A program made the position numbers and the translations under genes. The notes under the pieces are model-generated. The model was not told the DNA's origin, searched no databases, and worked only from the letters and a program-made list of their open reading frames with translations. Of a stretch of DNA of 64,000 nt, positions 345 to 32,413 are shown in pieces. Source of the stretch: Ligustrum vulgare (lineage: Eukaryota; Streptophyta; Magnoliopsida; Lamiales; Oleaceae). The first letter of the stretch is position 1. Each line of letters begins with the position of its first letter. The stretch covers positions 13,468,133 to 13,532,132 of the forward strand of contig OY743187.1 in assembly GCA_963555705.1 (NCBI GenBank), in the 5' to 3' direction.

Positions 345-3300
345 TGAATGTAGCATTGTTGTATTACAGACCATGTGATTTTTTTTCCTGTAGCAGTATG
401 ATTATAGGGGAGGCAAAAATCTCATGGCATGGAAAATGAAAATATTTTCTTACCTTACTCACTTTAGATTGTTTGATGGACAAAATCTTGCAAACAAAAT
501 ATTTTCATAGGAGTCACTAACGAGCCTCATTTTCATAATATTGATGGAAAAAAATTTCTTGTGTTTTATATATATAGGAAATCATTTTATATATATAGAA
601 AATGGTTTTCATCATATTTAATTATTTTTATTGCTGTTAATTAATTTTGTTTAAAAAATAACATTATTATTAAGTATAAATGTGTTAAAAAAAATTATTA
701 TTACAATGGCTAAATTTTATACTATTTTTCATGAAAAATAATGTCGATCAAACAACAAAACTTGAAAAATCTCACACTTTTTTCACCTAGAAAATTAAAC
801 CAATCAAACACTTCCAATTGATATTTTCCACAAAAATAATTTCGTGACAAATATTTTCCTTGAAAAATATTTTCCTTCCACCAATTTTCTACCCTTACAA
901 TCAAACATATCCTTAAGGTAAAATATATAGTTACTTTGTTACATAAGAAAAATAAATAATTATTTAAAAATATCATCTCAAATTGTTAGTTTTCATACTT
1001 ATGTGATGGTGGCGTGGAAGAAATTTTATCTGGTGCTATATCCAAATATAGATAACGTGCTAGATAAAGGGACTAGACAAATATTAATTTTTCAATTTAT
1101 TTAGGGAAGTTTGTTATTTGAGGTAATGTTAATTTGAAGACATGTGTATACATAAAAAATTGTAGACAAAGACCATTGAAATTAAGCTTTGAATTTCAAT
1201 ATCTATTTTATCAACATGAGTGAGACATTTATCTATTTAACTACTACATATATCAAAATATGCATAAATCATTAGAGATGCTCTAAGAACTGCATTGAGA
1301 AATTGTTTTATTTAGCCCTTGTTTGACAAATTGTTAAAAAATATGTTTTTAAACAATACAATTTCCTAATCTTTCTCTACTTTTTTAATAATGTATTTTA
1401 ACTAAAAAAACATAAAAAAAACATGTTTTTAAACAAAAAATTTAACAAACTGAACCTAAATTGATTTATAAATTATAATAATTACCTTAAAAACAGAGGC
1501 TAAGAAAGTGTCCCGTTAGGGTGAGATGTAATGGACTGACTCTATAACTAATGAACCATGCTACTTGTACTTGAAGGTCAACAAAGATGATGTTTGATTT
1601 ATTGCTTAACGTGGACAACATAAGATTTGCACACAACCCATAAAAAATTGTCAAATATCCAATATTTTAAACATTAGACACTTGTCATTTTTTCACTGAC
1701 CGTGGGCAATTCTTATGTTACCTATGGTGGACAATAGACCAAAATTGTAACAAAGAGATTGACACAATATAAACATGGTACAATCTTATCACTTTATCCA
1801 TTACATCAAATCTTAAATTAATACACACAATCTCTCCAACCTACAAATACAAGTAGCATTAGTCATTACTAATTATTAACCATGTAAAAAAGTTATTTAG
1901 TTCTGTTTGATTCCAATTTTTTAGAACTCATTTTTACAGCACATTTTCTGAATTCAAAAAGAATTTTACTGCACAGTTAAAATGAACATTTTTTTGAAAA
2001 CTAATTTGATTAATTTATACAAATCATTTTTTTTAATTAAATGAAATTTATGAAAAAGTTAAGTGGACTTTCTTTTAAAAAAAAAAAAATCAGGAGAGAA
2101 GGCGGTCTTACAAATTATTTTTTAGCCTGCATTTGGTTTTACATTTTCTCAAAATACTTTTTAATATATACATTTCTTTAAACTATTTTTCAATCACATA
2201 TTTTAATTAAAAAACATTACATTCTTTATTAAAAAAAATTACTTAACACGGCATTGAAATGTACTGAGTTCTGACAAGGGAAAAGTCAACTATGTGGACA
2301 GCAATTTATTAATATATATATTTTTTCCTGTTATTGGACCAATCATGCTCTTTCTGATATCTTTAATAATGACTTTTTCAAATATAATATTTTAGTTTTT
2401 TTTATTTCCCATTAGTATAATAATGCCTCAATTAGTGGGGGTTTTTTTTTTTTTTTTTTTTTTAATAATAACCGAAGGTGCTTAATCACCGCTCATTTGG
2501 TAGGTTTAACACTCACATCGGCCAAAAATTCATAATTTGTCAAAGACGATAATAAAATGCAATCAAGGGACCTTTCTCTAAGAACTAAACCCCTATTTGA
2601 TTACCTTTGCTTTCTTGATAACTTGGTATTCTCGTCTTTTCTTACCATTTTGACTGTTTGATGTGTAAACTTTTTCAAGGCAATTCTTTTCTCTTTTTGT
2701 CAAGTGAGACATTTTGCCTTGATTTGTTGAAATTGGTTTGGCAAGGACAGTGTACATAAAGCATTTTCATGTAAAGTTGGTAAAAAAAATTGCTTTCTTT
2801 AATTATTTTTATTGTTGTTAATTAACTTTTTATTTTTTCCCTAAAAATTAACATTATTATTATTATCAAGTACAAACATGTGACAAAAATTTTAAAAATA
2901 TTTTTTTGATTAAAATAGCTAAATTTTGCTATAAAAAACATTGTCAATCAAATAATAAAATTTGAAAAAAATTTCACTTTGAAAATCAAACCAATCAAAC
3001 ACATTAAACTTCCAATTTCCAGAAATTTAATTCTCTGAAATTCATTTTCTTACCACCCAAATTCCACTACCAATCATTCATATTTATAAAAAAAACAACC
3101 TGCTTCATTCCACACTAATATACAAAGTTGACCAAAATCAGTTTAACACACTACCACAATAATCAACCTATTCCGAATTACCGATACTACAGCTAAAATA
3201 AGTAGAAAATACAAGAAAATAATAAAGAGCAAAAAATCAAATAAGATTATTTGAAGTTACATACTACTTCCATTAAGAGAGTCGCATTATAATAACTCTC

Positions 3301-21149: not shown

Positions 21150-22117
21150 GTGTTCAATGAGGGAGTTACTTGTGAGAGAGGCCCATAGTGGAGGCTTAAT
21201 GGGTCATTTTGGGGTTAAAAAGACCATTTAAATGCTAAGTGAACATTTCTATTGGCCTAAGATGAAGATTGATGTGGTTCGGGTTTGTAATAGATGCATT
21301 ACTTGTAAGAAGGTTAAATCTAGGATTAAACCCCATGGATTATATATGCCTTTACCCGTCCCTAGTGAACCTTGGGTCGATATCTCTATGGATTTTGTTT
21401 TGGGATTACCTAGAACTAAGAAGGGAAGAGATTCAATTTTTGTGGTAGTAGATCGCTTTAGTAAAATGGCACATTTCATACATGCCACAAAACTGATGAT
21501 GCTACTAACATAGCTGAAATTTTCTTTCGAGAAGTCGTGCGCTTACATGGGGTTCCTAAAAGTATTGTCTCGGATAGGGATGTTAAATTCCTTAGTCATT
21601 TTTGGAGAGTCTTGTGGAACAAATTAGGAACAAAACTACTTTTTTCTACAACTTGTCACCCACAGACCGATGGACAGACCGAGGTAGTGAATAGGACAAT
21701 GATTCAATTATTGCGCACCATAATCAATAAAAATCTGAAAAATTGGGAAGAGTGTTTACCATTTATTGAATTTGCATATAATAGGACTATACATTCTACT
21801 ACTTCTTGTTCACCATTTGAAATTGTTTATGGTTTTAATCCGCTAACACCATTGGATTTAATTCCTTTACCTGTGAATGAACGTAGTAGTTTAGATGGAA
21901 AGAAAAAGGCTGAGATGGTTAAAACACTCCACGACAAGGTGAGGTTGGCAATTGAAAAGAAAAATGAACATTATGCATCGCAGGCTAACAAAGGAAGAAA
22001 GGACGTCATATTTGAACCCGGTGATTGGGTTTGGGTACATTTGAGAAAGGAGCGGTTTCCAGAACAACGCAAGTCAAAGTTACAACCGCGAGGGGAATGT
22101 CCATTCCAAGTGATATA
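21146..22117 (+). pseudogene. Integrase, interrupted by the LOG-bearing element
   Basis: HHCC zinc domain ([10 protein letters not shown] ... CNRCITCKK), then a DDE core with Asp in SMDFVLGLP, Asp in VSDRDVKF and Glu in [10 protein letters not shown], all retained. An in-frame TAA lies at 21227, and a one-base loss in an A run near 21492 shifts the frame. The C-terminal region reaches [14 protein letters not shown] and then stops being homologous at 22117, where the LTR of the nested element starts. The remaining C-terminus resumes after 32020. The nested element duplicated ATATA at the break. Confidence 0.92.
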
Positions 22118-22734
22118 TGTAGCGCCCCGAGTTCCGTATACCCGATTCACTACGTCATTTTCTGTCTAAATTTTTCGAATAATATTTTTGCGGAAGAAAT
22201 AATTGAAATTCATTTTTGGCAACATTAAATAAACTGTAATGGCCGCTAAAATTGAAAACATTTATGAAACCATTTGAAATAGTAAATCGAACCATTAATA
22301 TTGTAAAGAAATTGCCAATATCATAATTTCTCAAATAAATGAACTTCTCTAAATTATTCGATTGTTTGGAAAATACGGAAATCATTAACGTCAAACTTTC
22401 AACCGTTCAACGATTATTGCCACCATCATTCATCGCTCGCCACCGTCTCCGAAATCTGCAAAACTGTTAAAAGTAGGGTGAGTATTTCATGGGGGAAATA
22501 CTCAGTAGACTCATCGCGAATTAATTTAATTTATAAGATGATTAAACACATAAATCCCTGCTCTTTATAAAACGGGCATTGATAGAGCTTCTTTATAAAA
22601 CTGCTCTTGATAAAACTCATATTGTGCATTACAGCACGGGACATATTTTGCAAATCATAGGCTCTTTGAAAATAGCTCTTTGAAAACCATATACTTATAA
22701 AAAACATTTTAATTATGCCAAGCATAATTTCTTT

Positions 22735-23165
22735 TGAAAGCATAACATAAGATAGGATTGAAATCCTCATAAACATAAGAAGACACAAGAACTTTACCGA
22801 ACTTAGGTGGCAAGAATTCTTATGCAGTAAAATCATAATAACAGTAAGTTTTCATCATAACATAGGATAATATCGAAATCCTCATAAACATAAGAATTTT
22901 ACCGAACTTAGGTGGTAAGAATTCTTATGTAGTAAGTATACCAAGCATAATTTTCTGAAATTCATAGGGATCAATTGCATCATAACATAAGATAGGATCG
23001 AAATCCTCATAAACATATGCGACAGGAATTTTACCGAACTTAGGTGGTAAATCCTCATAAACATATGGAAAGATAGGAATTTTACCGAACTTCGTGGCAA
23101 ATCCTCATAAACATAGGAGACACAAGAATGTTACCGAACTTAGGTGGCAAGAATTCTTATGTGTA
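22735..23165. repeat. Tandem repeat zone 1 in the 3.3-kb LTR
   Basis: About five imperfect units built on ATAGGATCGAAATCCTCATA, then TTTTACCGAACTTAGGTGG and AAGAATTCTTATG. Unit length varies as parts are dropped. An identical zone occurs 6,614 bases downstream in the other LTR (29349-29779). Confidence 0.8.
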
Positions 23166-23599
23166 GCGCTACTAAAACTCCGGTCCCCTTAACATATCAT
23201 AACTTATCATATGGGACCCAAAACAATCTTGGTAGATTGATTTCATAGCAATGATCCAAAAAAACATTTTCGTGAAGCATAGGGTATACTTACTTTTCGT
23301 AAAAACATAAAGTATATTTTCTTTTCATAAAAACATACTTACTTTTCATAACAACATAAGGTATATTTACCTTTCATAAAAACATACTTGTTTTTCTTAA
23401 AAATTGACTTTCACAAGTCACATGACATTCATATGAAATCATAATTTAAATCAATTAATAAGTGCGAGTCTACCTCAAATCCGACGAGTGCAAAGTTGAG
23501 CGGGAATGACTTCAATTTCTTTAAATTCTCCGTACGCTTCGTCTTAGCCAATAAGTCACTTTAGTATATCGAATATATAGTTCAAAATGATAAATTATA

Positions 23600-23880
23600 A
23601 TTTGAGGACTAAAATTGATGTTTTGAAAGTTGAGGGACTAAAATGAATACTTTTGAAAGTTCAGGGACTAAAATAGATATTTTGAAAGTTAAGGGACTAA
23701 AATGAATACTTTTAAAACTTGGGCTTAAAAGTAAATCAGCAGGTACTGAAATAAAAGAGTTTAAAGTTAAAGGGCTGAAGTAAATCATTTTAAAGCTTTG
23801 AGGCTGAAATGGATGAGTTTAAAACAGTAGGGACTGAATTAAAACAATTTAAAACATCAGGGACTGATTTGCAAATTCTG
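23600..23880. repeat. Tandem repeat zone 2 in the 3.3-kb LTR
   Basis: About nine degenerate units of some 30 bp around GGGACTAAAATGAATACTTT and later GGGACTGAATTAAAACA. The same zone is at about 30214-30494. No coding sense; it may be part of the LTR's regulatory region. Confidence 0.75.
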
Positions 23881-25406
23881 GAAATAATTAAAATATAAAA
23901 ATCAGCATTCTCTCTCTTCTTCGACCCAGTTTCAGAGACAGAGTGAGACGAGCGAGAGAAAGGCGATCGGTGAGATGGAGGAATCCGACGCTACAGCCGG
24001 TGGAACACCGCCTCGAGGTGGCGGCGAGAGGCAACCAAGTAGGACGGTTCAGATTTTAGAGCTTAGTTACGGGATTTGGTGCGAGACCGAGGCTGAAATT
24101 TGGGGATTGATCTAGGTTGAAAACGAAATTAGAGTTCGAAGGTCTTCCGGCGACTATCCGTTTAGATGACCGGTGATGAAGGTAGGTACTAGTTTTGTTC
24201 TGAGTTTGGTTTTTGGTTTGAGATTCAAGCTGGGCTGAGGGAGGTGGCGGTGGATCTTGGTTTGGATGTGATTGATGATGATTCCGGCTTCTTCTATTTC
24301 TGGGTTTTAATTTGTGGCGTAACTTGCGACTGACTGTTGTGCGGTGGTGATGAATGGTGGTGCCGGCGATTTGTGATTGGGGAATGGTTGGTGCAAACGG
24401 GGTTTGCAGTGGATGTATCCGATTGGTAGTGAATTTCTGACCGTGTGTGATGGTAGTGGAAGCAGAGTGGTGTAGTATCTGGTGGTGAAGATGGTGAATA
24501 TGGTTGATGGCTTGATGAATTGGTTAACTGGTGGTTTGATCTGAAATGTAAATTGCTGGAAATGGAATTGGAAAATGGATGGAGTTGAAATTGATTGGTA
24601 GGGATAATGTGTTGAGATTGATTTGGTTATGGCAGTGGTGAATTTGGAGAGACAGGGCGTGGAGCTATTGCTGTAGATTGGTGCCAATGTGATGATGGTG
24701 CAGTTTGGGGTTCTGTGGTGGTGCTGAGATAGTGGAGATGGTGGTTGGTGATGCTGGTTGTTTGATGGAAATGGAAGTGAAGGTTGTGCAGTGATTGTTT
24801 TCTGATGGTGATGAAGATGATGATAGAGTTTGATGGGAATAAGTGTTGGTTTTGTGCTGTGGAGAAGATGATGAAGAAATGCTGTAGGAATTGGTTGCAG
24901 CTTTCATCATGTATAATGGAGTGGTGTCATGTATAATGGAGTGGTGGTGAAATAGATGATAATGGAGAATATAATCATTATGTTCTTGCAACATAATGAA
25001 TACATACGGGTGGTGGAGTTAGTGGGGAATAAAATCATTGAATGGAATAATTATAATTTGGTTTAATATGATATGGATTTGGTGTAAAGAGAAAAGAAAG
25101 GAGGAGAAAACATGGGGGATGAAATCAACTAAAAATTTAACTATCTTTGATCAAGAAACGTTTTTAAAACAGATATATTTTTGACTGAAAAATACATTTT
25201 GAAAATAATACTTTGAATAAATAATTAAATAACATAATTTTAGAAATTCGGATTTTAATTTAAAATCGAACAAATTCGATATTTCTTGACTTGGCTAGAC
25301 GAATCCGTCGCGGCATTAATTTCAAAATAATAAATGAAATAGTAGCGACACAATTTTCTAAATATTAAAATAATTATTTATTGCATAAAAATTCTGGATC
25401 GCTATA

Positions 25407-25460
25407 ATCTTACCTCCTTAAAATAATTTCGTCCTCGAAATTAAACTTACTTAATCTTAT
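25407..25460 (-). pseudogene. Residual pol terminus and polypurine tract of the LOG-bearing element
   Basis: Read on the minus strand it gives SKFNFEDEIILRR and a stop codon, a pattern typical of the last residues of plant Ty3/gypsy polyproteins. It runs directly into AAGGAGGTAAGA and the 3' LTR. It proves the element's orientation and ancestry; the rest of pol is not visible. Confidence 0.7.
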
Positions 25461-25949
25461 AATTTCTGAATACTTAATCAGAATCTCTTCTTTTTATCAT
25501 CGAAAATTCTCAAAATAATCAAAGAATTACCTGAATATTTTCTCTACGTAAAATACCCAAACATATCAACATAATATCATCAACTTATCTTTCCAATAAT
25601 TGTAACCCAAAATTCAGTAAACAAATATCTCCCAAAACTAAGATTCTATACTTAAATGTCACCACATTTCCTGCAAAGTATTTCTTTCACTTGTATATAC
25701 GTATGAATTCTGATTCAATACGGTACTCATTTTACTTTCCACGTATCATCACATTATACCAAGATTATCATTATTAAAACAAAATATCAGTACCCATAAT
25801 CCAAGAAAATATTCTAAATCTCCAATCAAATCTCCTTTATCGATAAAATTTAACAGCGCATTACTTCTTGTCTCCTCTTTTCATTAAAATAATCCTGCGC
25901 TTTCTTGCTGGTCACAACATCACGCGGATTCACTCAGATCCTTTACGCT

Positions 25950-25958
25950 TTTAAATAG
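25950..25958 (+). promoter_or_regulatory. TATA-like box upstream of the cysteine-rich ORF
   Basis: TTTTAAATAG lies 33 bases or so before the ATG at 25991. The core TTTAAATAG recurs upstream of the LOG ORF, suggesting that each gene has its own promoter. The short distance implies a very short leader. A five-codon upstream ORF (ATGCTGAGAAGAGG) begins at 25962. Confidence 0.4.
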
Positions 25959-25990
25959 TTCATGCTGAGAAGAGGTTGAATCATCAAACA

Positions 25991-26542
25991 ATGGATATCA
26001 TTCTTTCTAACATTCGCAAGTATTATTCCAGTCTTCCTATGAATGATCTGAGAAAGATCTATAAAATAAGGCTCGAAAGATTGAGGTTGTTAATGGCTCA
26101 TGATATTCCAGAAGATGTTCGCTGGTTGATAGAAGCAAAGGTTCGACTATCTGGTGAATTACCATCAACATTTCCAAAACATATGCCTGGTTTAGGCAAA
26201 AGCACGTTCGCAAAGAAACGAAGAGCAAAAAGACTGGGTGGTTGCTACAAATGTGCTCGTTGGAACTGTAATACACTTTGCAAATCAGTAGGATATTCTT
26301 CTACTAATCGGGATGATAAAATCGAATTCATAAAGGGTGGACTGAGTAAGGAGTCTTTGGATGATATTCGACTGACTCTTGAGACGCACCCAAGTGGTTA
26401 TGTACAACGTGAACTTCTCTCCTTATACGCTCAGTTTAACGAGGACAAAAATCGTTATAATCTCCAAAATATAATATCGAAAGATCCTGTTTGCCAGTCT
26501 GTTTTACAAAATGAGGCTTCTGGCAGTTCAGCAATGATATAA
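25991..26542 (+). CDS. Basic cysteine-rich protein, possible nucleic-acid binder, retroelement cargo
   Basis: 183 residues from the first ATG; an in-frame TTG lies 15 bases upstream. Residues 1-60 are helical-looking and Leu/Arg/Glu-rich (LRKIYKIRLERLRLL, IPEDVRWLIEAKV). A strongly basic patch KKRRAKR at 75-81 is followed by four cysteines at 85, 88, 93 and 97 (CX2CX4CX3C, segment GCYKCARWNCNTLC). The tail is mixed and ends Ser-rich. There is no signal peptide or membrane segment. The order 'IPED helix, STFAKKRRAKR, Cys cluster' recalls the cysteine-rich nucleic-acid-binding proteins of carla-like plant RNA viruses (Pfam Carla_C4). That is recognition from memory, not a search. The ORF is intact, lies antisense to the host retroelement, and is 340 bp upstream of the LOG gene on the same strand. 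It could equally be a captured plant protein of unknown family. Confidence 0.7.
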   Translation: MDIILSNIRKYYSSLPMNDLRKIYKIRLERLRLLMAHDIPEDVRWLIEAKVRLSGELPSTFPKHMPGLGKSTFAKKRRAKRLGGCYKCARWNCNTLCKSVGYSSTNRDDKIEFIKGGLSKESLDDIRLTLETHPSGYVQRELLSLYAQFNEDKNRYNLQNIISKDPVCQSVLQNEASGSSAMI

Positions 26543-26599
26543 GGTAAATCTTTTTAAAATATTTTGCTGCTTTCTTTCACGCGTTTTGGAAATAAAATA

Positions 26600-26681
26600 T
26601 ATTTTCCTTTCTCGAGGTTTGATAAAGCTGGAAATAAATATATTTTCCTTTCTCGAGGTTTGATAAAGCTGGAAATAAATA
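26600..26681. repeat. 41-bp direct repeat between the two cargo genes
   Basis: Two identical adjacent units, each starting TATTTTCCTTTCTCGAGG and continuing TTTGATAAAGCTGGAAATAAA. They sit in the intergenic region upstream of the LOG TATA-like box and could be promoter elements duplicated in tandem. Confidence 0.85.
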
Positions 26682-26799
26682 TTAAATCGCCGAAAGGTGA
26701 CAGCCTCGATACGATAAAAATATTCAAAAGTGGGCTGATTTTGTCAAAAGTAAATCTTTACTTTTTCAGAATCAATCAAAAACAGTAAATTTTTCCGGC

Positions 26800-26808
26800 T
26801 TTAAATAG
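26800..26808 (+). promoter_or_regulatory. TATA-like box upstream of the LOG gene
   Basis: TTTAAATAG within GGCTTTAAATAGCC, 75 bases before the LOG start codon. This spacing is compatible with a TATA box about 30 bases upstream of transcription start and a leader of some 45 bases. It matches the core upstream of the cysteine-rich ORF. Confidence 0.5.
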
Positions 26809-26882
26809 CCAAACATATTTCATAGTTCAGGCATCCCAAAATCACATCTTCTTCGTAAGTTTTCCCTTCTTTACTATCAAAG

Positions 26883-27536
26883 ATGGAAGCACCAAAACTT
26901 CGACAGATCAAAACTATTTGTGTATTTTGTGGATCAAAAGTAGGGAAAGGCTTCGGTTATCTAGAAGCGGCTGTAGATCTTGGAAAGAAACTGGGGGAAA
27001 AAGGTATCACTCTTGTATATGGGGGTGGTAGCAGTGGTCTAATGGGTTGTGTTTCCCAATCTGCTCTTGCAGAGAAATCAAAAGTAATCGGTGTTATACC
27101 TGTCCCTTTGGTAGATGTTGCAGGCAAAACACGAGGGCATGAAGTTCAAACCTTATCCATCCATGAACGCATAACTTGTATGCTATATGGTTCTGATGCC
27201 TTTATAGCCCTGCCCGGAGGTTTTGGTACCTTAGAAGAAATCTTTAACATTACCTCGTGGGCTCAACTAGATCTCCATACTAAGCCTATTGGGCTTCTGA
27301 ATGTTAACAATTTCTTTGATGGTTTGTTAACCTTTCTTGATTATGCTGTGGAACAGGGATTCATCTCTCCATTTTCCAGAAGGCTTCTTATTTCTGCTCC
27401 TACTATTGATGAACTACTGGATAAGCTGCAGTCATATATCTCAATACAAGATCCAGCAGGAGTTAAGATAGATTGGTCGCAAGGAAGGGGAATCAAGCGA
27501 AAATGGAGTCCGGTTAATGTAAACTTAACTCTTTGA
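26883..27536 (+). CDS. LOG: LOG-type cytokinin riboside 5'-monophosphate phosphoribohydrolase, intronless, retroelement cargo
   Basis: LOG enzymes release free cytokinin bases from their riboside monophosphates in one step, in the cytosol and nucleus. The 217-aa product spans the whole family fold: ICVFCGS at 12-18, YGGGSSGLMG at 46-55, VIGVIP at 68-73, and the hallmark PGGFGTLEE at 111-119 (family PGGxGTxxE), followed by SWAQLDLHTKPIGLLN. The conserved arginine of the HxR motif is kept (HER, 94-96), although the following Lys of plant LOGs is Ile. Length matches plant LOGs. The frame is uninterrupted and lacks introns, whereas plant LOG genes are normally split into several exons. Residues 74-100 and the tail (RGIKRKWSP) are unlike the plant LOGs I know. 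It lies antisense inside a young LTR element with its own TATA-like box and 3' stem-loops. Function in cytokinin activation is probable from motifs but unproven. Confidence 0.93.
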   Translation: MEAPKLRQIKTICVFCGSKVGKGFGYLEAAVDLGKKLGEKGITLVYGGGSSGLMGCVSQSALAEKSKVIGVIPVPLVDVAGKTRGHEVQTLSIHERITCMLYGSDAFIALPGGFGTLEEIFNITSWAQLDLHTKPIGLLNVNNFFDGLLTFLDYAVEQGFISPFSRRLLISAPTIDELLDKLQSYISIQDPAGVKIDWSQGRGIKRKWSPVNVNLTL

Positions 27537-27547
27537 ATCTTAGAATA

Positions 27548-27758
27548 GGTGGGGGTAGAGTACGGAGTATTCTCACTCTCGAGACACCCCTCCATTTACT
27601 AGGATTTCCTTAATGTTTAAATCTTGTGTATACTTCAAAGATTCCAGGTGGTAGATTACGGAGTATTCTTACTCTCGAAACACACCTCTTTGAAGGTTTC
27701 TTTATTTCCTCAAAAGATCAGAGGTGGTAGGATACGGCTACTCCGGAAACACATCTCT
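27548..27758 (+). repeat. Three related stem-loop units 3' of LOG
   Basis: Units start at 27548, 27646 and 27721. Each reads roughly GGTGGTAGAxTACGGAGTAT, a C/T-rich loop, CTCGAAACAC, then ACCTC, so that AGGTGG pairs with the closing CACCTC. Spacing is about 98 and 75 bases. They lie between the LOG stop codon and an AATAATAAAA signal at about 27855, probably within the LOG 3' UTR. Possible roles are transcript stabilisation, 3' end formation or RNA recognition. Confidence 0.65.
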
Positions 27759-28716
27759 CATTCTGAGGATCTTTCCATGTTTTTCTCTTATGCTTTCGTG
27801 TGTTTCATGTATTTCCTTTCCAGTGTGACTCTTGTGTGTTCTCCTTATGAGAAAATAATAAAATCTCTGCTATCATCTACTAAATCTCGTTTGTGATGTA
27901 AATGATCTTGCATGTCTAACCTTAATTCCTTTAGTGGATGCTTATCATATTATGCTCTTAATTCCAAATGATAAAATTCTGGATAGAGTCTCCCTTGTAA
28001 TTTGGACTTATCCAAACCATAAGCATACTTCAAAACTCACAATAATAAATAACTCCACATTTGATCACAACGATCTAAAAATATTGAAAATGATTCCAAC
28101 ACTTCAATATCATCAAAATATCTCATAATTCAATTCATAATTCCTCAACATAACAATTTCAAATCATATTTTTCAATATCACAATATCACTTCCTTCCAT
28201 ACCTTAATTGGCTCAAAAGTTATTCCTACTTATAAATATATGCCATAAATCATATTCCCAAAATTTATTCACAAAGCCAAACTTCATAATAAATTTCTCT
28301 TCAACATAGAGGCATAATAAATTAACTCAACATAATATCCATTACTTAATTCTCAATAAAATCATATTATTCCCATTATGCTCAACACTCGTTTTCTTTT
28401 AGAAAAATTTCTCATACTCATACATTAAAGCATATAAGTTATGACAAAGCATAACAACATCATTATTTTCGAAGAAATACATTCTTATTTCTCATAAATC
28501 ATAAGTATCCGAAATACTCTTCATTCTTTCTCATAAATCAATAAAATGAGTATTCGAAATACTGAAATAACTTTAAACATCATAAACTTCTTTACCTCGG
28601 AGTTGGTGGAACGAATGATGGCAGTGGCAATCTTCATCAATAAAATTTTTTATAATGGAAAATATTTCTTGAAAATTCTTTTTGAAAATTTTTCCAGTCT
28701 ACAGAAACGCAGACTA
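27759..28716. other. Non-coding end of the cargo and element leader
   Basis: AATAATAAAATC at about 27855 may serve as a polyadenylation signal for LOG. From about 28000 the sequence is AT-rich with many CATAAT/CATAAA words and no supported ORF. The last 100 bases (minus strand: AGTCTGCGTTTCTGTAGACT) look like the untranslated leader of a Ty3/gypsy element. Confidence 0.5.
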
Positions 28717-28728
28717 GCTCTGATACCA
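28717..28728 (-). other. Primer-binding site (initiator tRNA-Met), LOG-bearing element
   Basis: The minus strand reads TGGTATCAGAGC, three bases from the LTR end at 28732. It shows that transcription of the element runs on the minus strand, opposite to the LOG cassette. Confidence 0.9.
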
Positions 28729-28731
28729 ACT

Positions 28732-31700
28732 TGTAGCGCCCCGAGTTCCGTATACCCGATTCACTACGTCATTTTCTGTCTAAATTTTTCGAATAATATT
28801 TTTGCGGAAGAAATAATTGAAATTCATTTTTGGCAACATTAAATAAACTGTAATGGCCGCTAAAATTGAAAACATTTATGAAACCATTTGAAATAGTAAA
28901 TCGAACCATTAATATTGTAAAGAAATTGCCAATATCATAATTTCTCAAATAAATGAACTTCTCTAAATTATTCGATTGTTTGGAAAATACGGAAATCATT
29001 AACGTCAAACTTTCAACCGTTCAACGATTATTGCCACCATCATTCATCGCTCGCCACCGTCTCCGAAATCTGCAAAACTGTTAAAAGTAGGGTGAGTATT
29101 TCATGGGGGAAATACTCAGTAGACTCATCGCGAATTAATTTAATTTATAAGATGATTAAACACATAAATCCCTGCTCTTTATAAAACGGGCATTGATAGA
29201 GCTTCTTTATAAAACTGCTCTTGATAAAACTCATATTGTGCATTACAGCACGGGACATATTTTGCAAATCATAGGCTCTTTGAAAATAGCTCTTTGAAAA
29301 CCATATACTTATAAAAAACATTTTAATTATGCCAAGCATAATTTCTTTTGAAAGCATAACATAAGATAGGATTGAAATCCTCATAAACATAAGAAGACAC
29401 AAGAACTTTACCGAACTTAGGTGGCAAGAATTCTTATGCAGTAAAATCATAATAACAGTAAGTTTTCATCATAACATAGGATAATATCGAAATCCTCATA
29501 AACATAAGAATTTTACCGAACTTAGGTGGTAAGAATTCTTATGTAGTAAGTATACCAAGCATAATTTTCTGAAATTCATAGGGATCAATTGCATCATAAC
29601 ATAAGATAGGATCGAAATCCTCATAAACATATGCGACAGGAATTTTACCGAACTTAGGTGGTAAATCCTCATAAACATATGGAAAGATAGGAATTTTACC
29701 GAACTTCGTGGCAAATCCTCATAAACATAGGAGACACAAGAATGTTACCGAACTTAGGTGGCAAGAATTCTTATGTGTAGCGCTACTAAAACTCCGGTCC
29801 CCTTAACATATCATAACTTATCATATGGGACCCAAAACAATCTTGGTAGATTGATTTCATAGCAATGATCCAAAAAAACATTTTCGTGAAGCATAGGGTA
29901 TACTTACTTTTCGTAAAAACATAAAGTATATTTTCTTTTCATAAAAACATACTTACTTTTCATAACAACATAAGGTATATTTACCTTTCATAAAAACATA
30001 CTTGTTTTTCTTAAAAATTGACTTTCACAAGTCACATGACATTCATATGAAATCATAATTTAAATCAATTAATAAGTGCGAGTCTACCTCAAATCCGACG
30101 AGTGCAAAGTTGAGCGGGAATGACTTCAATTTCTTTAAATTCTCCGTACGCTTCGTCTTAGCCAATAAGTCACTTTAGTATATCGAATATATAGTTCAAA
30201 ATGATAAATTATAATTTGAGGACTAAAATTGATGTTTTGAAAGTTGAGGGACTAAAATGAATACTTTTGAAAGTTCAGGGACTAAAATAGATATTTTGAA
30301 AGTTAAGGGACTAAAATGAATACTTTTAAAACTTGGGCTTAAAAGTAAATCAGCAGGTACTGAAATAAAAGAGTTTAAAGTTAAAGGGCTGAAGTAAATC
30401 ATTTTAAAGCTTTGAGGCTGAAATGGATGAGTTTAAAACAGTAGGGACTGAATTAAAACAATTTAAAACATCAGGGACTGATTTGCAAATTCTGGAAATA
30501 ATTAAAATATAAAAATCAGCATTCTCTCTCTTCTTCGACCCAGTTTCAGAGACAGAGTGAGACGAGCGAGAGAAAGGCGATCGGTGAGATGGAGGAATCC
30601 GACGCTACAGCCGGTGGAACACCGCCTCGAGGTGGCGGCGAGAGGCAACCAAGTAGGACGGTTCAGATTTTAGAGCTTAGTTACGGGATTTGGTGCGAGA
30701 CCGAGGCTGAAATTTGGGGATTGATCTAGGTTGAAAACGAAATTAGAGTTCGAAGGTCTTCCGGCGACTATCCGTTTAGATGACCGGTGATGAAGGTAGG
30801 TACTAGTTTTGTTCTGAGTTTGGTTTTTGGTTTGAGATTCAAGCTGGGCTGAGGGAGGTGGCGGTGGATCTTGGTTTGGATGTGATTGATGATGATTCCG
30901 GCTTCTTCTATTTCTGGGTTTTAATTTGTGGCGTAACTTGCGACTGACTGTTGTGCGGTGGTGATGAATGGTGGTGCCGGCGATTTGTGATTGGGGAATG
31001 GTTGGTGCAAACGGGGTTTGCAGTGGATGTATCCGATTGGTAGTGAATTTCTGACCGTGTGTGATGGTAGTGGAAGCAGAGTGGTGTAGTATCTGGTGGT
31101 GAAGATGGTGAATATGGTTGATGGCTTGATGAATTGGTTAACTGGTGGTTTGATCTGAAATGTAAATTGCTGGAAATGGAATTGGAAAATGGATGGAGTT
31201 GAAATTGATTGGTAGGGATAATGTGTTGAGATTGATTTGGTTATGGCAGTGGTGAATTTGGAGAGACAGGGCGTGGAGCTATTGCTGTAGATTGGTGCCA
31301 ATGTGATGATGGTGCAGTTTGGGGTTCTGTGGTGGTGCTGAGATAGTGGAGATGGTGGTTGGTGATGCTGGTTGTTTGATGGAAATGGAAGTGAAGGTTG
31401 TGCAGTGATTGTTTTCTGATGGTGATGAAGATGATGATAGAGTTTGATGGGAATAAGTGTTGGTTTTGTGCTGTGGAGAAGATGATGAAGAAATGCTGTA
31501 GGAATTGGTTGCAGCTTTCATCATGTATAATGGAGTGGTGTCATGTATAATGGAGTGGTGGTGAAATAGATGATAATGGAGAATATAATCATTATGTTCT
31601 TGCAACATAATGAATACATACGGGTGGTGGAGTTAGTGGGGAATAAAATCATTGAATGGAATAATTATAATTTGGTTTAATATGATATGGATTTGGTGTA

Positions 31701-32020
31701 AAGAGAAAAGAAAGGAGGAGAAAACATGGGGGATGAAATCAACTAAAAATTTAACTATCTTTGATCAAGAAACGTTTTTAAAACAGATATATTTTTGACT
31801 GAAAAATACATTTTGAAAATAATACTTTGAATAAATAATTAAATAACATAATTTTAGAAATTCGGATTTTAATTTAAAATCGAACAAATTCGATATTTCT
31901 TGACTTGGCTAGACGAATCCGTCGCGGCATTAATTTCAAAATAATAAATGAAATAGTAGCGACACAATTTTCTAAATATTAAAATAATTATTTATTGCAT
32001 AAAAATTCTGGATCGCTATA
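28732..32020 (-). repeat. 5' LTR (3,289 bp) of the LOG-bearing element
   Basis: Same length as the LTR at 22118-25406. All ORF translations and spot-compared segments are identical and every landmark is offset by 6,614. The RNA start site was not located. Confidence 0.93.
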
Positions 32021-32025
32021 ATATA

Positions 32026-32413
32026 AAGGATCGACAACAATGCCTATAAACTCGATCTTCCTGGTGAGTATAATGTTTCGGCTTCATTTAATGTTTCTGA
32101 TCTATCTCCATTTGATGCAGGTACAGATTCGAGGTCGAATCCTTTCGAAGAGGGAGGGGATGATGTGATCCAGACCACGAATACAAGCCCGCACAAAGAT
32201 CCATTGAAGATCAAAGGAGGGCCAATGACTCGCCTGCAAACAAAGAGGGCCAACGAAGCAATGGACAAGTTAGTTCAAGGAACAATGGCCAAAACAATGT
32301 TCGTGTTATCAAAAGAAGAAAGTTCCATGTTGGGACCGAGCCAAAACGACGAGTGGATCAACCTCATTCAATGCGTCGAAGAAAAATTTGAAATTTCAAT
32401 GTTACGACCGTAA
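32026..32413 (+). pseudogene. Integrase C-terminus of the chromovirus-type element, running into its 3' LTR
   Basis: After the nested element, homology resumes as RIDNNAYKLDLPGEYNVSAS, the usual plant chromovirus integrase tail. The frame continues through the purine tract and the LTR start (GGPMTRLQTKRANEAMDK) to a stop 250 bases inside the LTR. A polyprotein that ends within the 3' LTR is known for CRM-type chromoviruses. With the insert removed, the junction would contain a TAA, another sign of decay. Confidence 0.75.

Follow-up and report, generated by a model that had tools for sequence, protein, structure and literature searches.

An Antisense CRP-LOG Module on Three Retrotransposon Backbones in Ligustrum vulgare

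Genes of the LOG family have been met within plant long terminal repeat (LTR) retrotransposons before: consensus sequences of Gypsy elements from two Citrus species and, with no filter applied, from Populus trichocarpa were reported to contain YgdH/LOG domains, in agreement with Steinbauerova et al. 2011, who are credited there (PMC9289625). Here, we describe a locus of Ligustrum vulgare, where a stretch of 64,000 nucleotides (contig OY743187.1, positions 13,468,133 to 13,532,132; hereafter, the window) contains an LTR retrotransposon that carries, antisense to itself, one gene for a LOG-type protein and one for a cysteine-rich protein (CRP). Like the Citrus and Populus elements, it has a LOG-family open reading frame (ORF) inside a plant LTR retrotransposon; in that report, however, the extra domains were all in Gypsy elements, and the available part of the text makes no mention of a CRP partner, of pocket residues, or of a tail. 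Because the screen began from reverse transcriptase (RT), it would have missed elements without pol (PMC9289625). A first-pass annotation of the window, to which no described retroelement family with such cargo was known, was thus mistaken or incomplete with regard to LOG in plant Gypsy elements.

Antisense ORFs that lie close to the 3′ LTR and are shared by most copies of an element are known as aORF-3R from Grande, RIRE2, Retand, and PvRetro13, and that of Grande is reported to have its own promoter (PMC7264820, PMC11963269). The proteins named for these elements (TRP28, gene23, and SMC-like) differ from CRP and LOG, and the elements are described with gag-pol, which the window element lacks (PMC7264820, PMC11963269). 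A review further characterizes antisense ORFs as without similarity to genes outside transposable elements, to other transposable elements, or to viruses, whereas the CRP and LOG of the window do have such similarity (PMC7264820). Neither cytokinin nor cysteine is mentioned in the available part of PMC11963269. The aORF-3R class is defined by an antisense ORF between pol and the 3′ LTR; CRP and LOG are antisense and adjoin that LTR in an element that has no pol, which makes them candidate members of the class. We take TR-GAG elements and LARDs to be the names applied to elements with LTRs and a primer-binding site (PBS) and without pol. The window element shares these features, and one of the backbones described below keeps a Copia gag; what the window family adds is a conserved two-gene antisense module. 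Among the literature matches listed, whose titles and abstract openings were surveyed without supplements, subscription journals, or preprints, none described a retrotransposon bearing CRP or a viral nucleic-acid-binding protein (NABP), or a LOG-CRP pair, and those for the Pfam names of CRP concern glyoxalase genes by title. In the portions of the literature examined, LOG-domain ORFs in plant Gypsy elements are thus already known, while the pairing with CRP, the sharing among backbones, and the remodelled LOG were not found.

Anatomy of the window element

The element occupies 22118..32020 on the minus strand. Its 5′ and 3′ LTRs in element sense (28732..32020 and 22118..25406, respectively) are each 3,289 bp long and identical at 3,289 of 3,289 positions, and they are abutted by copies of the target site duplication (TSD) ATATA at 22113..22117, beside the 3′ LTR, and at 32021..32025, beside the 5′ LTR. 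The PBS TGGTATCAGAGC, which is presumably of the initiator-Met type, is read from 28728 to 28717 on the minus strand, and the polypurine tract (PPT) AAGGAGGTAAGAT at 25407..25419 of the same strand abuts the 3′ LTR. Paired LTRs, TSD, PBS, and PPT are therefore all present. On the plus strand, antisense to the element, lie CRP (183 amino acids [aa]; 25991..26542) and the LOG-type protein (217 aa; 26883..27536), the latter matching PF03641 with an E value of 1.3e-33. In these respects, the first-pass annotation, which had described a recent LTR element with its PBS and purine tract and with LOG and cysteine-rich ORFs as antisense cargo, was accurate.

Besides CRP and LOG, stop-to-stop ORFs of the internal region do not exceed 101 aa, and we therefore regard the element as devoid of gag-pol and as a non-autonomous member of its family, termed backbone A. 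This backbone may be Ty3/gypsy of the Tekay type; the tentative assignment comes from the PBS and a pol-end motif in an element without RT, and both the "Gypsy-like" character and the residual pol terminus are by-eye readings. At a substitution rate of ~1.3e-8 per site per year, one difference between paired LTRs is expected per ~12,000 years, so the absence of any difference indicates a young insertion. The element is nested in another Gypsy-type element and interrupts its integrase end (21537-22117 and 32021-32400). The ORF at 21537-22115 shows a match to the integrase-end domain SH3_Tf2-1 just under the cut-off (29 of 30 bits); by eye, the coding sequence appears to resume to the right of the TSD, and an in-frame TAA seems present at the target site.

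Copies, backbones, and boundaries of the module

A 29-mer from LOG, allowing up to 2 mismatches, had 6,373 matches (3,116 + 3,257) in the 1.385-Gb genome and none for its reversed control. This figure is the least biased of our counts and itself a lower bound, and the family comprises at least 6,000 LOG copies on three backbones. Patterns for the PPT/LTR and LTR/PBS junctions of the window element (up to 3 mismatches) gave 3,892 and 2,431 matches, respectively, against 0 for each control. Genome searches pointed the same way, although the best-150 lists favor intact copies: the best 150 of 7,995 PF03641 candidates were all above the cut-off, one of them with an internal stop, and the best 150 of 8,793 CRP candidates were all at 98 to 100% identity. 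Copy counts of this order exclude restriction of the cassette to a single site and make an assembly artifact unlikely, both of which the first-pass annotation had raised as possible refutations. That annotation was incomplete in the size of the family and the number of its backbones. Tandem LOG-bearing units, with periods of ~5.9 to 7.1 kb and inter-unit identity of up to 100%, were also observed at C2:24821734-24846566, C11:32533948-32548484, and C17:243997-256293 (loci L009 to L011 and L015 to L018), and at C22:20428363-20446770 from the match list only; they look as if recombination between LTRs had yielded LOG-bearing satellites.

Linkage of the two genes is nearly constant. A set of 20 stretches was drawn from 15 places in the LOG list, among them five tandem or paired places selected as such and ten single copies, and in all 20 CRP and LOG are neighbors with an unchanged gene order. 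Along contig C1, where 20 copies were hand-picked from 100 listed exact 29-mer matches, CRP is present in 19; in the remaining copy (L034), it may lie beyond the 2.2 kb retrieved. Seventeen of these 20 copies have LOG open over 217 aa, and 17 have CRP open over the family length. CRP and LOG are antisense in all eight elements oriented by their PBS (the window element, L017, L019, L022, L024, L026, L027, and L028). A perfect tandem duplication of 41 bp (window 26595-26676) lies between the two genes.

In addition to backbone A, to which the window element belongs, two further backbones carry the pair. Backbone B, as seen in L024, has 1,905-bp LTRs at 99.4% identity, the TSD AAGAG, and the PBS TGGTATCAGAGC. 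It retains a sense Copia gag ORF of 305 to 315 aa, which matched PF14223 in 3 of 3 tested elements (E values of 5e-25 to 9e-24), and with LTRs, a PBS, and no pol (as judged from ORFs of at least 170 aa and the L024 sequence), it fits a Ty1/copia TR-GAG element. Backbone C (L022, L026, and L027), a candidate Ty1/copia member, has LTRs of ~180 to 260 bp that start with TGTTA and end with ACAACA or ACAATA, the PBS CGTTATCAGCACGAG, unlike that of A and B, and the TSDs TAAAT, GAAAG, and TTATC; its LTR pairs are 98 to 99% alike in L026 and L027 and 85% alike in L022. L020 groups with backbone C, its ends not being settled. The LTR sequence of the window was not found inside B and C elements; L009 and L014 carry it adjoining theirs. 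Beyond the ORFs, BLAST similarity to the window extends over ~25745-27866 in B and ~25991-27796 in C, where weaker similarity continues further upstream of ~25991.

The boundaries of the module were set by three module-free sisters of the window's own backbone. The junction listings give exact matches first, and the comparison covers C1 as far as 47.66 Mb, where the list of LOG places ends. Within this span, all 18 listed PPT-side junctions go with the cassette (14 at a LOG place, 2 at a CRP place, and 2 fetched, L053 and L054), as do 25 of the 33 listed PBS-side junctions (19 at a LOG place, 4 at a CRP place, and 2 fetched). The other eight lie outside the LOG and CRP lists, and three of them, L055, L056, and L057, were fetched; neither CRP nor LOG was seen in the 1.4 to 1.5 kb obtained for each. 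At the position of the cassette, these sisters have another common sequence with 94 to 98% mutual identity (958 bp in L056; partial in L055 and L057). Comparison with them places the breakpoints near 25887 and 27902, so that the plus-strand CRP-LOG module spans approximately 25887..27902. The 140 bp to the left of the first breakpoint are alike in A, B, and the sisters and, more weakly, in C; they may be the promoter of CRP or A sequence that B and C acquired together with the module. Given this shared segment, the sisters may be ancestral or may have lost the module.

Short non-coding stretches of the module are also conserved. A TATA-like TTTAAATAG lies on the plus strand at 25950..25958, 41 nucleotides (nt) before the ATG of CRP, in five of six copies from A, B, and C, with TTTAAAAAG in the sixth (L024); a second TTTAAATAG, at 26800..26808 of the same strand and 83 nt before the ATG of LOG, is found in 4 of 4 A and B copies, with TTTAAAAAG in two C copies. 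Across the six copies compared, at most one base of these boxes is changed, and they are the features that mark the putative own promoters of the two genes. In the 3′ region of LOG, three hairpin-like repeats of ~40 nt (27548-27590, ~27648-27687, and 27721-27758, plus strand) are nearly unchanged across the three backbones: between the window and L027 of backbone C, a pair with a synonymous divergence (dS) of 0.46 in LOG, they are identical at 40/43, 37/40, and 37/38 positions. One of the spacers between them is equally conserved (16/17), and the other is at 29/38. The hairpin itself is a lead only, as single-sequence z-scores are weak (−1.97 to +0.23) and both sides are changed in 2 of 53 pairs. 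An Rfam scan of these repeats returned no family at threshold and three matches far below their gathering scores.

Selection and the two proteins

Ratios of nonsynonymous to synonymous divergence (dN/dS) were estimated pairwise, not branch-wise, by NG86 for 13 copies (6 A, 5 B, and 2 C) from pairs with dS above 0.02. Across A, B, and C, LOG gave 0.07 to 0.17 at dS of 0.30 to 0.50, and CRP gave 0.12 to 0.20 at dS of 0.38 to 0.92; among A copies, the values were 0.00 to 0.10 and 0.11 to 0.25, respectively. These ratios indicate that both genes are under purifying selection and not neutral, the outcome that the first-pass annotation had considered fatal to its proposal. They also bear on host gene transduction, by which a host LOG cDNA would have been captured as a neutral passenger. 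The ORF is intronless and LOG-like, and capture of host genes by plant LTR elements is documented (PMC7264820), but dN/dS far below 1 over dS of 0.3 to 0.9 between backbones contradicts neutrality. Thousands of copies, with 17 of 20 sampled copies open, a LOG clade distinct from the sampled canonical LOGs, and the pairing with a viral-type gene speak against it as well, and we consider such a passenger highly improbable.

The cysteine-rich ORF, which the first-pass annotation had rightly found intact and left unnamed, is recognizable from Pfam as a putative carlavirus-type NABP. It matches Viral_NABP (E value of 2.1e-7) and Carla_C4 (E value of 3.2e-6), both above the gathering score (31.6 versus 23 and 27.4 versus 20.9 bits for the two families), and PF01623 and PF05515 are matched by 30 and 31 of 32 aligned CRP sequences, that of the window included. 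A cysteine cluster, C85-x2-C88-x4-C93-x3-C97, follows the basic stretch KKRRAK; the CxxCx4Cx3C pattern recurs in 106 of the best 120 of 352 relatives found at an E value of up to 0.1, among which Orobanche, Populus, Xanthoceras, and Acer are named sources. The p12 of chrysanthemum virus B acts as a nuclear transcriptional activator and as a cytoplasmic silencing suppressor (PMC7588395), and its zinc finger binds nucleic acid (PMC9650830). CRP is like that p12 in its Carla_C4/Viral_NABP families, basic stretch, and cysteine cluster, but it is retrotransposon-borne and longer (183 aa versus 12 kDa), and its C-terminal third lies outside the Pfam matches.

In three Orobanche gene models (P0017, P0019, and P0023), CRP is fused to part of LOG in one protein; gene prediction has probably joined two neighboring genes of a retrotransposon in these models. 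Contigs of equal size yield both CRP and LOG matches (P0010/P0141, 8,723 bases; P0015/P0220, 4,511 bases; P0118/P0133, 2,128 bases), which is circumstantial and suggests linkage in other plants too. Judging from these sequence matches, relatives of CRP and LOG are present in several eudicots.

Since CRP matches families named for plant viruses, the two genes might descend together from a plant virus, or a satellite of one, that had integrated and whose DNA copy was then caught by retrotransposons. No virus with both genes was seen in a search that did not extend to plant-virus records proper: in a scan of viral contigs, 55 stretches fit a pattern and none was confirmed, and a phage collection, where plant viruses are not to be expected, had no match. 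Transfer between viruses and retrotransposons may have run either way. We consider this origin quite unlikely.

The LOG-type protein of the window scores above the cut-off for PF03641/TIGR00730, and its model (pLDDT of 85.6, falling below 50 in the tail from residue 200) is closest in fold to Arabidopsis LOG3, with a Foldseek TM score of 0.96 by target and 0.77 by query length. Common to it and Arabidopsis LOG3 and LOG8 (2a33 and 1ydh) are the fold, the nucleotide loop PGGxGTxxE, and the catalytic pair R96 and E119, which correspond by motif to R99 and E122 of CgLOG. Two pocket residues differ, I97 replacing a Lys and N122 a Glu, which correspond by motif to K100 and E125. In CgLOG, K100 belongs to the adenine and prenyl sites and E125 to the prenyl one, and the two residues are present in AtLOG3 as well; replacing residues for AMP binding or catalysis by alanine almost abolished activity, with S19A as the exception, the mutants not being itemized in the part available (PMC4979012). 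Residues of the base site are somewhat variable among LOGs (PMC5379747).

These replacements are typical of the relatives. The best 120 of 7,230 were aligned with 120 canonical LOGs, which are LOG1/LOG3-like through the choice of query; we call the former retrotransposon-type, a label not backed row by row by location in an element. Xanthoceras, Diospyros, Reevesia, Diplodiscus, Populus, Primulina, and Parasponia are named among them. The catalytic Arg is kept in 112 and the catalytic Glu in 118 of the 120, versus all 120 canonical LOGs for each, whereas the pocket Lys beside the Arg is kept in 8 and the pocket Glu (window position 122) in 7, again versus 120 of 120. A separate motif reading agrees for the Lys (8 K, 7 unread). 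Within the last 12 residues, LxLxL, the consensus of the EAR motif (PMC9956375), occurs in 92 of 120 retrotransposon-type proteins and in none of the canonical ones, with 3.0 expected from shuffled tails; a basic patch, defined by a loose expression, precedes it in 89. Tested for LxLxL or DLNxxP, the window copy, whose tail is KRKWSPVNVNLTL, has VNLTL.

A tree of 62 proteins (38 retrotransposon-type, i.e., 35 of the best 120 and three from L. vulgare; 22 canonical LOGs plus AtLOG8; and one bacterial LOG) set the retrotransposon-type rows apart by a branch with support 100/97 and the canonical rows by another with 97/93. The tree is midpoint-rooted, and the program warned of a bootstrap that was still unsettled and of long branches that join. 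In this tree, retrotransposon-type LOGs appear as one clade apart from the sampled canonical LOGs. Basal Xanthoceras rows keep the Lys and have no LxLxL, the next branch (P0161) has both, and most remaining rows are without the Lys (P0189 is an exception), which suggests that the tail evolved first and the pocket changed later. Some gene models of Reevesia, Diplodiscus, Populus, and Xanthoceras that bear the annotation hypothetical or LOGL10 resemble the retrotransposon-type LOG, and the number of LOG genes counted for these plants may be too high.

The first-pass annotation had proposed that the cassette could alter cytokinin dosage. In its full form, this would make LOG a working phosphoribohydrolase, with raised cytokinin keeping meristem or germline cells dividing to the profit of the element. 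The fold near LOG3, the catalytic residues and loop kept in the window copy, and the purifying selection on LOG fit such an enzyme. However, the loss of the pocket Lys and Glu from nearly all relatives makes the production of active cytokinin doubtful, the replaced residues being those of the adenine and prenyl sites in CgLOG (PMC4979012). The protein also missed the NCBIfam cytokinin-LOG equivalog (109 of 300 bits), which is weak evidence because that model was built for bacteria and archaea. We regard this proposal as unproven and, on balance, unlikely.

Possible roles of the CRP-LOG module

We propose, with a probability of roughly 0.6, that the element is a non-autonomous LTR retrotransposon whose CRP-LOG accessory module serves the retrotransposon and not the host. 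The module is best read as a selfish unit of counter-defense or host manipulation common to several retrotransposon types. Support comes from the thousands of LOG copies, the near-constant linkage, the antisense placement on three backbones, the common flanks with their TATA-like boxes, and the purifying selection. Under this proposal, CRP and LOG would each be transcribed from their own promoter, and gag-pol proteins for transposition would be supplied in trans by other elements. CRP, by analogy with carlavirus p12, would bind nucleic acid and either dampen RNA silencing or activate host genes. The LOG-type protein, which has an altered base pocket and, in most relatives, a basic tail with an EAR-like LxLxL, would bind and perhaps hydrolyze a nucleotide monophosphate and would thereby influence the supply of cytokinin or repression of the TOPLESS type where cells divide.

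One special case of this proposal, its odds overlapping with those just given, is that the remodelled LOG is a regulator that senses another nucleotide or serves as a nuclear scaffold, recruits TOPLESS through the C-terminal EAR-like motif, and partners with CRP. The pocket changes and the enrichment of LxLxL and its basic patch argue for it, and the lack of a strict LxLxL in the window copy (VNVNLTL) and the catalytic pair still kept in most relatives argue against it; nuclear localization and TOPLESS binding are predictions. We consider it possible and hold it tentatively. A more elaborate version, in which a two-gene counter-defense module hitch-hikes between Gypsy and Copia elements across eudicots and combines a virus-type silencing suppressor or transcription factor with a neofunctionalized LOG fold that has a rebuilt pocket and a nuclear TOPLESS-recruiting tail, is likewise something we would put forward with less than even confidence.

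Several points weigh against a module in the service of the retrotransposon. Transcription and activity of CRP and LOG are predictions. The viral Pfam matches span residues 16-120 and 65-98 of CRP, leaving the C-terminal third uncovered, and the CRP model (pLDDT of 59.6) is too poor for fold comparison. In the LOG of the window, the tail VNVNLTL is only a degenerate form of LxLxL. Constraint is weaker between B copies, with dN/dS of up to 0.30 for LOG and 0.28 for CRP, and the single C pair gave 0.40 and 0.44; such looser constraint inside subfamilies is as expected for copies decaying after insertion. Finally, a product acting in trans should also aid competing elements, and its retention by non-autonomous copies is unexplained.

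What antisense ORFs do for plant LTR elements is treated as an open question in work on them (PMC7264820, PMC11963269). As CRP and LOG both belong to recognizable families, it becomes testable here in standard assays. The results also suggest that genes of retrotransposons are present among the plant gene models now labeled LOG-like or hypothetical. If the proposal is true, the CRP-LOG module would be to retrotransposons what accessory genes are to viruses, a possible anti-silencing or host-manipulation module common to different retrotransposon types.

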